Source: Marivita sp. GX14005
Lineage (GTDB): Bacteria > Pseudomonadota > Alphaproteobacteria > Rhodobacterales > Rhodobacteraceae
Reading direction: 5' to 3'
DNA length: 64,000 bases
Assembly: GCF_023370775.1 (NCBI RefSeq)
Contig: NZ_JAMCCQ010000001.1
Coordinates: 1,178,001-1,242,000, forward strand
Below, piece by piece: positions 5,736 through 24,333 of this stretch. A model generated the notes under the pieces. It made no database searches and was not told the origin of the DNA. It saw nothing but the letters and a program-made list of their open reading frames with translations. Within the stretch, counting starts at the first letter, position 1, and each line of letters begins with the position of its first letter. The position numbers and the translations under genes are program-made.

Positions 5736-7843
5736 CCAGGTTCGACAGCTATACCGTGGTGGACTGGTCGGCAGGGCTCAGAGCGCCCGCGCGCCCGTCG
5801 CCGAATGCGATCTGGATCGGTTCCGTGCAGGACGGGGTTGAGCAGGAACCTGTCTATTTGCGCACTCGTATCGAGGCCGAGGCATGGCTGAGCGCCTTTA
5901 TCGAGCGCGAGGAACAGGCTGGCCGCCGCGCGTTGATCGGGTTCGACTTTCCCTTCGGCTATCCGCAGGGATTCGTGCGCGCCGTGACCGGATCTGACGA
6001 TCCGCTGGTTTTCTGGGATTGGCTCGGCGAACGGATCGAGGACGACGCGGAGGGGCGCAACAATCGCTTCGATGTGGCCGAAACCCTCAATGCCATGTTC
6101 ACTGGCCCGGGGCCGTTCTGGGGCAAGCCGAACGAGGCACTGTGGCCGGAGATTCCCTATCGCAAGGCCGGTATTGCCTTTGATCGGGTTCCCGAACGGC
6201 GCCAGGCCGATTTGCGCGCGCAGGCGTCTTCGAGTTGTTTCCAGCTCTTTTTTAACCCCACCGTGGGTAGTCAGGCACTGATGGGGCTGCCCATGCTGTC
6301 CCGGTTGCGCCGCCGGGCGGGCGTGAAGGTCTGGCCGTTCGAGCGAATCGAGGATGCGCAGACGGTTTTCATTGAGATATGGCCCGGGCTGATCGAAGGG
6401 GCGGTCAAGGACGACGGTGATCCGATCCGTGATCGGGCGCAGGTGCGTTTGCTGTCGCGGGCTCTGGCGCATGTGGGGGAGGGGGAACTCCGTGCGATGT
6501 TGGACGATGTTCCCGATGGCGTGCGGCAGGAGGGGTGGATCCTTGGGGCGGGGCATGAGGCGCATCTCATGACCGCTGCGCGCCTGCCCGATTTGATGCC
6601 GCCCCCCCTGCGAAACGACTGCTTCGCGCTGCCGGCCGGGGTGGATTGGACGCCTGTGGACGATGCGCTCGCCATGCTGCGCGATCGGATGCGCCCGGTG
6701 GTCAAACCGCAAAGCGTTCCGCTTTTCGAAGCCGCCGGGCGTGTGCTGGCCACCGATCTGATCGCCTTGCGCTCCAACCCGTCGCATCCCAACACGGCGG
6801 TGGATGGCTACGGGTTCGGGGCGTCGGACATCGGCGACGGGCCGCAGATCCTGCCGCTCGTGCAGGGCCGTGCGGCAGCGGGTGCGCCGTTTGTCGGCGA
6901 ATTGCCGCCCGGCCATGCGGTGCGTGTCTTGACCGGAGCGGATCTGCCGCAAGGGGTGGATACGGTCGTTCTGGACGAGGATGTTTCCGTCGGCGAGGGG
7001 CGCATCGCGTTTCACGGGCCGCTGAAACGCGGTGCGAACACCAGAAAGGCCGGCGAAGACGTCCCTGCCGGCGATGTCGCGCTGTCTGCGGGGCGTATCC
7101 TGACGCCTGCGGATTTGGCGCTCGCGGCGGCTGTCGGGCATGGTATCCTGCCGGTGTTCGAAAGGCTACGGGTTGCGATCCTGTCGACCGGGGACGAGAT
7201 CGCGGAGCCCGGAACGCCTGCCGGGACGGGGCAGATCTATGACGCGAACCGGCCCATGCTTCTTTCATTGTGCCGGGATTTCGGTTTCGACACCGTCGAT
7301 ATGGGATGCGCGCGCGATGACCGGGAGATTGTTCGTCGCGCCTTGGAGCGCGCTGCGACGCAAGCCGATGTGATCCTGACTTCTGGTGGGGCATCAGCAG
7401 GGGACGAAGATCATCTGTCCGCCTTGCTTCGAGAGAGCGGCGCGATGCAGGAATGGCGCATCGCGCTCAAGCCGGGGCGTCCGCTGGCGCTTGGCATGTG
7501 GGATGGCACGCCGGTTTTCGGATTGCCGGGCAACCCTGTTGCCGCGCTGGTCTGCACGTTGATCTTCGCCCGCCCGGCGATGTGGGCGCTCGCCGGTGCC
7601 GGCTGGCGCGAGCCGCAGGGGTTCGACGTGCCGGCGGGCTTCGAGAAGCGAAAGAAACCGGGCCGGCGCGAATATCTGCGCGCGCGGATTCGGAACGGCC
7701 GGGCGGAGGTGTTCAAATCGGAAGGATCAGGGCGGATCAGCGGATTGAGCTGGGCGGAGGGGCTTGTCGAACTGCCTGACGGGGAGGCGCATGTCTCGCC
7801 CGGCGTTCCAGTGCGTTACATTCCCTTCGGATCGTTCTTCTAG
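5732..7843 (+). CDS. moeA: MoeA molybdopterin molybdotransferase with an N-terminal RNase H-fold-like domain
   Basis: A 703-residue protein, almost twice the usual MoeA length of about 400. From about residue 305 it is an ordinary MoeA, with NTAVDGYGFG, the SGGASAGDEDH motif and LPGNPVAAL. This part inserts molybdate into adenylylated molybdopterin. The first 300 residues are a separate domain with VVDWSAG near residue 10, IGFDFPFGYP near 70, FWGKPNE near 130 and FIEIWPGL near 214. The spaced Asp, Asp and Glu at the ends of predicted strands resemble DUF429-type predicted nucleases of RNase H fold; this is my inference from motifs. No stop or frameshift separates the two parts. It is the last gene of the fdhD-mobAB operon. 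MoeA identity is firm; the function of the N-terminal domain is unknown. Confidence 0.9.
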   Translation: MTRFDSYTVVDWSAGLRAPARPSPNAIWIGSVQDGVEQEPVYLRTRIEAEAWLSAFIEREEQAGRRALIGFDFPFGYPQGFVRAVTGSDDPLVFWDWLGERIEDDAEGRNNRFDVAETLNAMFTGPGPFWGKPNEALWPEIPYRKAGIAFDRVPERRQADLRAQASSSCFQLFFNPTVGSQALMGLPMLSRLRRRAGVKVWPFERIEDAQTVFIEIWPGLIEGAVKDDGDPIRDRAQVRLLSRALAHVGEGELRAMLDDVPDGVRQEGWILGAGHEAHLMTAARLPDLMPPPLRNDCFALPAGVDWTPVDDALAMLRDRMRPVVKPQSVPLFEAAGRVLATDLIALRSNPSHPNTAVDGYGFGASDIGDGPQILPLVQGRAAAGAPFVGELPPGHAVRVLTGADLPQGVDTVVLDEDVSVGEGRIAFHGPLKRGANTRKAGEDVPAGDVALSAGRILTPADLALAAAVGHGILPVFERLRVAILSTGDEIAEPGTPAGTGQIYDANRPMLLSLCRDFGFDTVDMGCARDDREIVRRALERAATQADVILTSGGASAGDEDHLSALLRESGAMQEWRIALKPGRPLALGMWDGTPVFGLPGNPVAALVCTLIFARPAMWALAGAGWREPQGFDVPAGFEKRKKPGRREYLRARIRNGRAEVFKSEGSGRISGLSWAEGLVELPDGEAHVSPGVPVRYIPFGSFF

Positions 7844-21816: not shown

Positions 21817-21893
21817 GGTCCCGTGGCTCAACTGGATAGAGCAGCCCCCTCCTAAGGGGCAGGTTGCAGGTTCGAATCCTGCCGGGATCGCCA
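21817..21893 (+). tRNA. tRNA-Arg (anticodon CCT)
   Basis: A full cloverleaf can be drawn. The acceptor is GGTCCCG/CGGGATC (one G-T pair), the D arm GCTC/GAGC, and the anticodon stem GCCCC/GGGGC around loop CTCCTAA with anticodon CCT at 21851-21853. The T arm is GCAGG/CCTGC with loop TTCGAAT; discriminator G and an encoded CCA follow. It reads AGG codons. Its 3' end abuts the mobile-element remnant. Confidence 0.97.
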
Positions 21894-21910
21894 TGGATTC
21901 GGATGAATTG

Positions 21911-21953
21911 CCAGAAAAACCGGTTGCGTGCTTAAAAGAACGCAATTGCTTGC
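21911..21953 (+). repeat. left-end tandem repeats of the transposon remnant
   Basis: Copy one, 21911-21931, reads CCAGAAAAACC then GGTTGCGTGC. Copy two, 21934-21953, reads AAAAGAACG then CAATTGCTTGC and is weaker (about 14 of 20 positions match the consensus CCAGRAAACCAATNGCGTGC taken from all copies). They begin 17 nt after the tRNA CCA. Confidence 0.55.
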
Positions 21954-22193
21954 GCAGAATCCCGTTTCAAGCCGGTTTCTAACTTAAAAGGTTCATGGTT
22001 TTTAATATGATACAGGCCATACGGGGCATTCACCTCAACCGCCTTCGCAAAGCCGATCGCGCGTGATTAGACAGGTCGCTCGCTCGCGTCTCTATATCGA
22101 GAGCAGGACCCGGACCCTTTCATCATCATCCACCGTTCGCCGACCCAAGCGACTGCCGCCAGCTCCGACATCGCGCTCAGAAAGGAGATTGTC

Positions 22194-22296
22194 ATGCCCC
22201 GAGCCACGACGAATATACCATTTCACTCATTGTCCTTCCTTGGTGACATTCCAAAACGACATGAAATCGAACAAAGATGGACGACCTTCCTGCACG
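22194..22296 (+). pseudogene. 5' fragment of an IS-interrupted gene, possibly TniB/TnsC-like
   Basis: AAAGGAG at 22181-22187 precedes an ATG at 22194. The frame encodes MPRATTNIPFHSLSFLGDIP, then KRHEIEQRWTTFLHD, and is cut by the left end of the IS element; read on, it stops at 22350 inside the IS. The HEIEQRW stretch is like the N-terminal region before the P-loop in TniB-type ATPases. The P-loop itself is missing. The 3' part of probably the same gene lies at 23689-24018. Functional naming is tentative. Confidence 0.45.
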
Positions 22297-22297
22297 A

Positions 22298-22323
22298 TAG
22301 TGTCCCACCGAATGGTGTAAGAG
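22298..22323 (+). repeat. left terminal inverted repeat of the IS256-type element
   Basis: Matches the reverse complement of 23662-23687 at 22 of 26 positions. Confidence 0.85.
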
Positions 22324-22352
22324 CGCCGACCTTCGGCAAGGCCCGAGCCTGA

Positions 22353-23549
22353 TCAGGATGCCGCAGCTGGCAACCTGACGTTGGGATTGTCGTTCACGCG
22401 CGAGAGAGTTTCAAGGCTCATGTATCGGCGCGCGACCGTCCATTCGTCGTTGGTCTCGAGCATGATCGCGCCGACGAGCCTTATAATGGCCTCATCGTTT
22501 GGGAAGATGCCGATGACATCGGTGCGCCGCTTGATCTCGCGGTTCACCCGTTCCAGCGGATTCGTCGAGGCGATCTGGGGCCAGTGCTCGCGCGGGAAGT
22601 CCATGTAGGCAAGCACGTCGTCACGCGAGGCGTCCATGAAGGTGCCGAGCTTGTCCTGCTTTTCGCGCAACGCGTCGGCGACAACATCCTACTGAGCCTC
22701 GGCATCGGCCTTGCTTTCCTGGGCGAAGATCGTCTTGAGCATCGCCGCCACCGCCGTGCGCTGCTTGGCCGGAGCGTGCGCCGGGGCATTGCGCATCCAG
22801 TGAACCCGGCACCTTTGTTGGGTGGCGTTGAAGACTCGGCGTGCGGTAGCGCGCAGGCCTTTGTGATCGTCGGCGATCACCAGCTTCACGCCGCGCAGCC
22901 CCCGGTCGGCCAGGGATCGCAGGAAGTCCGTCCAGAACGTCTCGGCTTCGGAAGGGCCGGTCGCGACGCCCAGAACCTCGCGCTTTCCATCCTCGTTGAC
23001 CGCCACGGCTACTATCACGGCGCGGCTCACGATCCGGCCGCCCTCGCGCACCTTCACATAGGTCGCATCCAGCCAGACGTAGGGCGAGGCCCCCTCCAGC
23101 GGACGGCCCAGGAACGCGCTCACCCGCTCGTCAATGTCGGCGCAAAGCCGGCTGACCTGGCTTTTTGACATACCGCCCGCACCCATGGCCTTCACCAGAT
23201 CGTCCACAGAGCGGGGCGAGACGCCGTGGACATAAGCCTCTTGGATAACGGCCACGAGGGCCTTCTCGGCCATGCGGCGCGGCTCCAGGAAGCTGGGAAG
23301 ATAGCTCCCCTTTCTCAGCTTCGGGATCTCCAGCGCGATCCGGCCAGCACGGGTGTCCCAGTCGCGGTCGCGGTAACCGTTGCGCTGCACTTCCCGCAAC
23401 GGCGAGCGCGTTCCCTTGGCCGCGCCCGTCCGCGCCTCGACCTCCGCCTCCATGATCCGTTCGGCGGCGAAGGCCAACATCTCGCGCACAAGATCGCCAT
23501 CGGCCTGCTGTTCAACCAGCTCAAGCAGTGTCATTCTCTCATCGGTCAT
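22353..23549 (-). pseudogene. IS256-family transposase with in-frame amber codon
   Basis: The reading frame of 398 codons has family length but is broken by a TAG at 22689-22691, exactly in frame. The part before it ([12 protein letters not shown] to ...ESKADAEAQ) carries the first two catalytic Asp ([24 protein letters not shown]). The part after it (DVVADALREKQDKL to the end) carries the catalytic Glu region NPLERVNREIKRRTDVIGIFPN. A Trp (TGG) normally sits near this place in relatives, so TGG to TAG is a simple explanation. The product would lack the DDE glutamate and be inactive unless the stop is read through. Start at 23549, with GGAG six nt upstream. Confidence 0.92.
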
Positions 23550-23661
23550 CGTCATCTCCGTCTTTGGTTTCGAGTGTTGCAACCCAAACCTTTGCCGAAG
23601 ATCGAAGGTGGCCGCCAGCCCGGCCGCGCGCTGCGCTAAGCCAAGGGCTTCGCGCGCGGCC

Positions 23662-23687
23662 TCCTACACCATGCGGTGGGGCACTAC
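23662..23687 (-). repeat. right terminal inverted repeat of the IS256-type element
   Basis: Reverse-complement partner of 22298-22323. Confidence 0.85.
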
Positions 23688-23688
23688 C

Positions 23689-24018
23689 TTGCCGGAGGAC
23701 TACAACACGGTTCACGAGATCGTAGGGAGCTATGCTGTGCGTGCCAAACTTGAGACCGATGAAGCAATCCTGGATGAAGATTTCTACCATCGCCTCGTCG
23801 CCGCCGGTGCATTCCGCTGGGGCCTTGTCATCAAGCTCACGATTGATGCAATCGCCGCCGCCCGTGTCGCGGGAAGCGCCAAGCTTCTTGTCGATCATTT
23901 TGTCGACGCCTGGGTAGCAAAAACACAAGAGAACCGCGTCGCGACCCCTTTCACCCATAGCGCCTTCGAGACAATGTATCGAAAGGATCATCCGTTCATC
24001 GCGTCCTTGAGGGAATAA
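23689..24018 (+). pseudogene. 3' fragment of the interrupted gene, AAA+ lid-like C-terminus (possibly TniB/TnsC-like)
   Basis: About 109 codons remain, from the IS border to the stop at 24018, with no start of their own. Visible stretches are HEIVGSYAVRAKLETDEAIL, FYHRLVAAGAFRWGLVIKL, TIDAIAAARVAG, HFVDAWVAKT and FTHSAFETMYRKDHPF. The helical pattern with RWG...I...AI.AA resembles the C-terminal lid of TniB/TnsC-type ATPases, which link a target selector to the transposase. The similarity is by eye and weak. A terminator follows at 24046. Together with 22194-22296 it looks like one gene that lost its centre. Confidence 0.45.
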
Positions 24019-24045
24019 GCTCACTCAACCTTGCAATGCTGTGTT

Positions 24046-24072
24046 GGCCCGCGTCCTTGACGCGGGCCTTTT
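24046..24072 (+). terminator. terminator after the interrupted gene
   Basis: Nine-bp stem GGCCCGCGT/ACGCGGGCC, 5-nt loop, then TTTT, 27 nt after the stop at 24018. Confidence 0.88.
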
Positions 24073-24124
24073 CGCCTTCGAGGACCAGCGCACATATTCT
24101 TCCAATATTCGTAAAAAAGTTTGC

Positions 24125-24164
24125 GCACGGAATTGGTTTCCTGGGCACGCTATTGGTTTCTCAG
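24125..24164 (-). repeat. right-end tandem repeats, inner pair
   Basis: On the minus strand, CTGAGAAACCAATAGCGTGC (24164-24145) is directly followed by CCAGGAAACCAATTCCGTGC (24144-24125). These two 20-mers are the best-preserved copies. Confidence 0.65.
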
Positions 24165-24219
24165 CGCTCGGGTGTTAATCTAGGTATTTGTTCTTTATTG
24201 TTTTTTCTGGCCACTCGAA

Positions 24220-24261
24220 TCTGGGGGGTTGGTTTTTGGGCACGCATTAGGTTTCTCTGGC
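24220..24261 (-). repeat. right-end tandem repeats, outer pair
   Basis: On the minus strand, 24261-24240 reads GCCAGAGAAACC then TAATGCGTGC. It is followed by 24239-24220, CCAAAAACCAACCCCCCAG plus one base, which has lost the GCGTGC half. Spacing to the inner pair is about 55 nt. Apart from the terminator and these repeats, the 315-nt gap 24019-24333 is AT-rich and holds no gene I can support. Confidence 0.6.
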
Positions 24262-24333
24262 ATGAATATCGCGCTTCGGGGGAAGGCAGCCATGGTCGTG
24301 GTTTTCGATCTGCATTCCACTGGACGAAGTTGT

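Follow-up and report, generated by a model that had tools for sequence, protein, structure and literature searches.

The DNA analysed here is a 64,000-nucleotide stretch of Marivita sp. GX14005 (contig NZ_JAMCCQ010000001.1, positions 1,178,001 to 1,242,000; hereafter the window, whose numbering is used below). Next to an intact tRNA-Arg(CCT) gene it carries what is very probably the collapsed remnant of a Tn7-like transposon of the TnsABC plus TniQ type (21909–24262). The element runs from TG to CA between exact copies of a 5-bp duplication (TGAAT), its left end faces the tRNA, and the tail of tnsC adjoins its right end (Table 1). The initial annotation had proposed a Tn7/Tn5053-like relic; fuller relatives have a TnsA-like gene, a TnsD-sized TniQ and a tRNA target, so the transposon relic and its Tn7-like nature stand, and its Tn5053-like nature does not. 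Relatives are cited by working labels such as G067 or L009.

Table 1 Features of the putative Tn7-like remnant and its attachment site (window positions)
Feature	Position	Strand	Evidence or remark
tRNA-Arg (anticodon CCT), attachment-site gene, intact	21817..21893	+	ARAGORN; relatives' left ends preceded by same tRNA
Left copy of 5-bp target-site duplication, TGAAT	21904..21908		10 bp past tRNA
Remnant element, ends TGCCAGA...TCTGGCA	21909..24262		
Outer left predicted transposase (TnsB-type) site	21915..21934	+	matrix scan; weak match; offset 6 as in relatives
Inner left predicted transposase site	21937..21956	+	matrix scan; offset 28
Left-end AAA+ (PF00004) gene, first 34 codons	22194..22297	+	homologues in G067, G302, S1339
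IS256-family insertion sequence, inverted ends TAGTGTCCCACCG.../...CGGTGGGGCACTA	22298..23686	-	without target duplication; single genome copy
tnsC, final ~110 codons including stop	23687..24018	+	72% identity to L009 TnsC residues 210–319
Innermost right predicted transposase site	24122..24141	-	matrix scan; offset 121
Middle right predicted transposase site	24142..24161	-	matrix scan; offset 101
Terminal right predicted transposase site	24237..24256	-	matrix scan; offset 6
Right copy of 5-bp target-site duplication, TGAAT	24263..24267		

Inverted site arrays at both ends

Both ends hold arrays of ~20-bp sites in inverted orientation, as in Tn7-like elements. Twenty-five sites from nine ends of related elements, with the window excluded, served to train a matrix, and both strands of the 64 kb were scored with it. 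All four best scores fall in the element's ends: the middle right (25.2), innermost right (22.2), terminal right (20.6) and inner left (17.2) sites. The best score in each of 20 simulated first-order Markov sequences lay between 10.8 and 20.1, and the two left sites therefore rest on position, not on score. The offsets (left 6 and 28; right 6, 101 and 121) match those of relatives within 1 bp, and the predicted left sites are convincing once offsets, duplication and homologous elements are added to the scores.

The matrix ranking and the shared offsets bear out the inverted arrays that the initial annotation had described. Of the two right-end tandem pairs it proposed, that at 24125–24164 holds and that at 24220–24261 is one site, leaving three right-end sites in place of four. 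Its own consensus, with up to three mismatches, matched only 24125–24144 and 24145–24164 (0.01 expected). A tandem-repeat program did not list the arrays, as expected for degenerate 20-mers.

Two gene fragments joined by an IS256-family element

Between the arrays lie fragments of two genes. The right one is tnsC, 72% identical over 110 residues to the open-frame TnsC of Aliiroseovarius S1339 (locus L009). The left one opens an AAA+ gene whose homologues in G067 and G302 are intact frames of 364–366 codons starting ~300 bp inside the left end, with one further homologue near the left end in S1339; G262, G050 and Alg238-R152 have different genes at this end. The AAA+ gene and tnsC are the outermost genes of the G067 and G302 elements, >20 kb apart. 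A single interrupted gene, the candidate of the initial annotation (TniB/TnsC-like), was thus rejected, since 22194–22297 and 23687–24018 derive from different genes at opposite ends of those elements; its right part is tnsC and its left part is separate. That annotation had placed parts of a gene between the arrays; most of the interior is an insertion sequence (IS), which it left unmentioned.

The insert has the inverted ends and the profile matches of the IS256 family (PF00872, 1.5e-88; NF033543, 4.2e-79), and its transposase frame (22353–23582, minus strand) is broken by a stop at 22689–22691. No second copy occurs in the genome, and no target duplication surrounds the insert, which lies exactly at the fusion of the AAA+ and tnsC fragments, both genes being cut there. 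An IS without a duplication at a gene fusion points to an IS-linked deletion, which is the simplest reading of how the interior would have been lost.

We assign a small share of the probability to a different order of events, in which the interior was lost first and a short non-autonomous derivative was mobilised in trans into the tRNA site, the IS256 element arriving later. Such derivatives exist: G067-C58 is a separate short copy comprising a left end, an open AAA+ gene (95% identical to that of the full element on G067-C43), the tnsC tail and a right end. The exact 5-bp duplication around the window remnant is also what insertion of a ready-made unit would give. However, the IS in the window, lacking a duplication and placed exactly on the fusion, probably took part in the deletion; moreover, the breakpoints of the two copies differ and G067-C58 shows no duplication. 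Insertion of a complete element followed by collapse is the reading we retain.

Fuller relatives carry tnsABC and a TnsD-sized TniQ

Searching with the tnsC tail retrieved three genomes. L009 reads zinc-ribbon gene (PF12760), tnsA-like gene, tnsB, tnsC (PF13401), right end, with TnsB matching PF09299 above the cut-off and PF00665 just below it. Against solved structures, the TnsB profile matches PseTnsAB (2e-16) and Tn6677 TnsB (8e-12), and the TnsC profile matches Tn7 TnsC (6.4e-4). At E ≤ 1e-10, 49 of 394 genomes of the family have TnsB matches, mostly distant. The close ones are in G067 (60%), G302 (49%), G051 (48%, partial), G205 (43%, a short C-terminal piece), G262 (42%), G088 (41%, partial) and G050 (40%). 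Homologous tnsABC genes also occur at other loci. S1339, G067 and G262 keep tnsB and tnsC as open frames. In G302 tnsB is interrupted by three stops; Alg238-R152 has a single stop in tnsB and a gap in tnsC. A tnsA-like open reading frame is conserved in the right place, directly before or overlapping tnsB, at 10 loci. Viral contigs yielded no relative.

Beyond the remnant, its own genome (G000) encodes only distant TnsB (28%) and TnsC (26–28%). The remnant is most likely immobile because its own TnsAB is gone and only these distant homologues exist elsewhere. Two other loci of this genome, C1:337610-340634 and C7:190787-191982, hold TniQ with a distant TnsC, one of them also with the TnsB at 28% identity. 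They probably represent further Tn7/Tn5053-like elements.

Of 13 genomes searched for TniQ (PF06527), 11 have a match above the cut-off, the exceptions being G051 and G396. TniQ lies inside the elements of G067, G302, G262, G050, S1339 and Alg238-R152, on the strand opposite tnsABC. In five elements at tRNA-Arg(CCT) it has 589–680 residues; the G302 copy is split into two frames. Its profile gave only a chance-level match to solved structures. A tree of 18 TniQs places the eight adjacent to tRNA-Arg in a nine-row branch (support 95/97) together with G205-C37, to which no tRNA status was assigned. Seven of the eight labels are CCT (Tritonibacter by a tRNA 3' half only) and one is TCT (G127-C3). 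The labels require 2 changes on this tree, as low as in 1 of 500 shuffles. When only six rows carried labels, an earlier tree required 4 changes, a number equalled or undercut in 98 of 500 shuffles, and its clustering was not convincing; the Tritonibacter and G127-C3 labels were added, and one long branch dropped, after that tree had been seen. With its labelling changed post hoc the clustering is not a clean test, and we regard it as supportive. With the tRNA-Arg(CCT)/(TCT) branch, the part of TniQ that would read the tRNA gene becomes open to test.

These proteins bear on whether the element could instead be of the Tn5053/Tn402 type (TniA–TniB–TniQ, with resolvase sites as target), which we judge very improbable. 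Tn5053/Tn402 elements have an AAA+ adaptor, TniQ and site arrays and are not known to carry TnsA. Adaptor, TniQ, 5-bp duplications and site arrays in the two ends are common to them and the lineage described here, and TnsC would be named TniB in such a setting. In contrast, the relatives have the conserved tnsA-like gene (weakly shown to be TnsA) at tnsB, their best solved-structure matches are CRISPR-associated transposon (CAST)/Tn6677 TnsB and Tn7 TnsC, and TniQ has the length given above. The target is a tRNA gene, whereas PMC11406308 gives plasmid resolution sites as the targets of Tn5053/Tn402.

A shared address behind tRNA-Arg(CCT)

The family left end faces tRNA-Arg(CCT) at 12 places: the window, G067-C43, G067-C58, G302, G262, G050, S1339, Alg238-R152, G398, G400, G397 and G405. 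G067-C58 stands beside a tRNA 3' half only, G397 retains only the first ~14 bp, and G405 was judged by eye. A Tritonibacter mobilis plasmid record is a thirteenth, with a left end and TniQ beside the 3' half of tRNA-Arg(CCT). Site and orientation are thus fixed, with the left end towards the tRNA at the 12 places and in Tritonibacter. In G067, G302 and G262 the tnsABC operon is on the same contig as the tRNA, 22–37 kb downstream. In S1339, Alg238-R152 and G050 the left end lies behind the tRNA and the right end on another contig, with matching duplications TTTAA, GTTTC and CGACA, respectively; in S1339 the ends are also joined by the right flank, whose gene stands directly behind the tRNA in G002. 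Among eight elements with both ends determined, the window's included, five have an exact 5-bp duplication, 4–14 bp past the tRNA.

The LacI–tRNA-Arg(CCT) arrangement is kept in all 17 same-genus genomes, the window's own included. Five of them (G399, G401, G403, G408 and G409) have clean empty sites, with a flagellar motE-like gene within ~30 bp of the tRNA. Four read as carrying the family left end (G398, G400, G397 by ~14 bp only, and G405 with part of tniQ). G398, in which both ends survive and an IS-like transposase gene has inserted, is a second relic. The window accounts for one more of the 17, and in the remaining seven the tRNA is followed by a different insert, a gap or the end of the contig. 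A pattern search of the 394 genomes undercounts: it gave five, one of which (G371) has another kind of insert, and it missed G262.

Together these data define a Tn7-like rhodobacterial lineage, many members of which share one chromosomal address. Judging by the relatives and by what is known of Tn7, a TnsD-type TniQ would have bound the tRNA-Arg gene and TnsC would have bridged it to TnsAB, which would have cut the element from its donor and joined it just downstream of the tRNA, leaving the tRNA working. The interior, namely tnsA, tnsB, most of tnsC, tniQ and cargo, would have been lost later. In the present sequence the start of the AAA+ gene (34 codons) and the end of tnsC (~110 codons) meet at the IS256-family element.

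Several observations weigh against this reconstruction. The window copy has none of tnsA, tnsB and tniQ, and its outermost left site scores only 11.7 (rank 6), a poor match. The identity of the tnsA-like gene is weakly marked: Pfam Tn7_TnsA-like_N matches only 3 of its 10 members, weakly (best E 7.6e-4), its profile has no relative among solved structures, and a fold prediction from two sequences was poor (mean pLDDT, predicted local distance difference test, 46) and was not used. As to the site, G302, G398 and G067-C58 show no target duplication, and the ends of Alg238-R152 and G050, and S1339 apart from its flank, are joined only by a matching duplication. The attachment site that the initial annotation had proposed for a rhodobacterial family holds at the 12 places and does not extend to every relative. 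In G399 the tRNA-Arg(CCT) site is empty, and a TnsABC of roughly 50% identity (TnsC 51%) is encoded on a different contig; G088 and G051 have no left end behind that tRNA; a Pseudoruegeria relic (L011) lies away from the tRNA, and the tRNA flank in L067 is without a left end; and no tRNA occurs within the 41 kb fetched of Paracoccus ferrooxidans (L209).

It is hardly credible that chance, or intergenic repeats scattered through the genome, placed these motifs next to a tRNA with an unrelated gene fragment: although tRNA 3' flanks gather many kinds of mobile DNA, and several same-genus occupants are of other kinds, the family consensus (≤3 mismatches) occurs in the 3.45-Mb genome at only 4 places, 3 of them within this element, against 1 for a reversed control, which shows that the repeats are not genome-wide, and the duplication, the site offsets and the homologous fuller elements at the same tRNA add to this. 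Two further doubts raised by the initial annotation did not materialise either: tnsC matches transposition proteins, and syntenic empty sites are without the sequence.

Some neighbouring observations concern the same site. Left ends beside a tRNA-Arg(CCT) 3' half, cut at the anticodon loop, were seen in L111 (G067 C58:224449-224552) and L210:30130-30290, with integrase-like sequence, by eye, upstream of the half tRNA in G067; either the 3' half suffices as a target, or the tRNA was split afterwards by an integrase. The second plasmid record with a close relative, beside that of Tritonibacter, is Paracoccus ferrooxidans pFER4 (CP038202.1), where a TnsABC relative has two TniQ-like genes near tnsA. 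Ten further genomes have TnsB matches, eight of them also with a tRNA-Arg match (E ≤ 1e-15); by eye a left end is present only in G127, and it is of another type. This more distant Tn7-like type, with its own left end, stands behind tRNA-Arg(CCT) at G127 C4:10607-12650 and again, with an almost identical left end, behind tRNA-Arg(TCT) at C3:285433-287475 (L176, L182, L087, L096). A different insert, starting AAACTGCCTGAAAAATATG or with close variants, occupies the tRNA-Arg(CCT) 3' flank in G371 (C13:725132 onwards), L145, L146 and L151, and a start of this type stands before the left end in G302. G371 was rejected as an empty site: its tRNA carries this other insert, and the contig ends.

A structured leader and a zinc-ribbon gene before tnsA

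Closely upstream of tnsA, ~110 nt are conserved in six elements (L009, G302, G262, G050, G088 and G399); in L009 the putative RNA spans 6251–6361 and tnsA starts at 6415. The alignment fits four helices, in which 95.5% of cells are paired and 4 pairs have changed at both positions; its covariation score was reached by 1 of 500 shuffles, and slid versions were 20–48% paired. Across the 394 genomes, the model gave six strong matches (95.7–117.3 bits; next, 36.2), comprising four training members and the new G046 and G258, all six upstream of tnsA. E-values from this model are too generous, 101 of the 394 genomes passing 0.001. A further copy in Tritonibacter (L210 from 16857) brings the total to nine. 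The leaders of L010 and G067 have diverged, and by eye no copy was seen in those of G127, G171 and G309. Rfam matches to L009 5900–6430, the one leader searched, numbered four, all far under gathering scores. For the strand, pair counts give 2 G–T versus 3 A–C cells, and on reading, the opposite strand has a terminator-like first hairpin and a T-run in each of the six training copies. A guide-RNA reading was dropped: by eye, the likeness to an anticodon loop showed in L010 and in none of the other leaders inspected alongside it, and a TnsD-sized TniQ is present.

Four elements also encode a small IS1595-type zinc-ribbon protein upstream of tnsA (L009:5400-5966, L043:12688-13275, L010:170-740 and L013/L193). 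PF12760 matches those of L009 and L043; the match to the L010 copy falls into two separate pieces. The protein may be a regulator or an accessory target selector; as sole selector it was dropped, TniQ being present in the elements. We tentatively suggest, as a minority view of the data, that the lineage carries its own transposition-control RNA before tnsA, accompanied in some members by an IS1595-derived accessory selector or regulator beside TniQ. If functional, the leader would be a control element not met in the portions of PMC10293859, PMC8649781 and PMC11406308 available to us.

Relation to described transposons

With Tn7 and Tn7-like elements that use a TnsD/TniQ safe site, the lineage shares a tnsA-like gene, tnsB, tnsC, TniQ, TnsB-type site arrays at both ends, a 5-bp duplication, a single orientation, insertion immediately downstream of a conserved gene and defence-type cargo. 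It differs in its target, tRNA-Arg(CCT) (the more distant G127 type also uses tRNA-Arg(TCT)), in presenting to that target the end away from tnsABC, in having tniQ away from tnsABC on the opposite strand, and, in some members, in the zinc-ribbon gene (four elements) and structured RNA (nine copies) before tnsA.

The literature describes tRNA genes as safe sites of Tn7-like elements, reached through TnsD or a guide RNA (Faure 2023, PMC10293859; Benler 2021, PMC8649781; the review PMC11406308), and tRNA-targeting TnsD in type I-B2 and I-D CAST, for example at tRNA-Val and tRNA-Leu (PMC10293859, PMC11406308). These CAST resemble the present lineage in their TnsD-type TniQ, in a tRNA gene as attachment site and in insertion downstream of it; unlike it, they have a fused TnsAB (PMC11406308) and cas genes, tnsA and tnsB being separate here. 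The tRNA-Arg lineage fits the picture of the Benler 2021 Tn7-like collection (PMC8649781) and may be in its tables; the passages compared name neither a tRNA-Arg nor a rhodobacterial lineage. Tn7-like elements behind tRNAs are therefore already known, and we found no report of such a lineage at tRNA-Arg in Rhodobacteraceae or Roseobacter, subscription papers and supplements being beyond the search.

Defence-type cargo of fuller relatives

We scanned 20 cargo or left-end proteins from six elements, some against one library only. Profile matches were PD-Lambda-4_A, Vsr and PDC-S06 in G067, Drt3b and RTasSbcB in G302, and SduA_C (Shedu), FRG and AIPR domains in G262. The cargo of some fuller relatives thus likely includes anti-phage defence genes of different kinds, as the initial annotation had anticipated for intact relatives. 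No Cas effector was among the 20 proteins, and no systematic search for CRISPR genes or arrays was made. With such varied defence-type genes at a shared address, the 3' side of tRNA-Arg(CCT) can be viewed as a slot into which they are swapped.

A calcineurin-like phosphoesterase gene follows the left-end AAA+ gene in G302 (L045:11563-13492) and, by eye, in S1339 (L106:1488-3600), and the two are possibly an unrecognised defence pair. AAA+ homologues also lie just past tnsC in G399 (C96) and in Paracoccus (L209:21910-22998).

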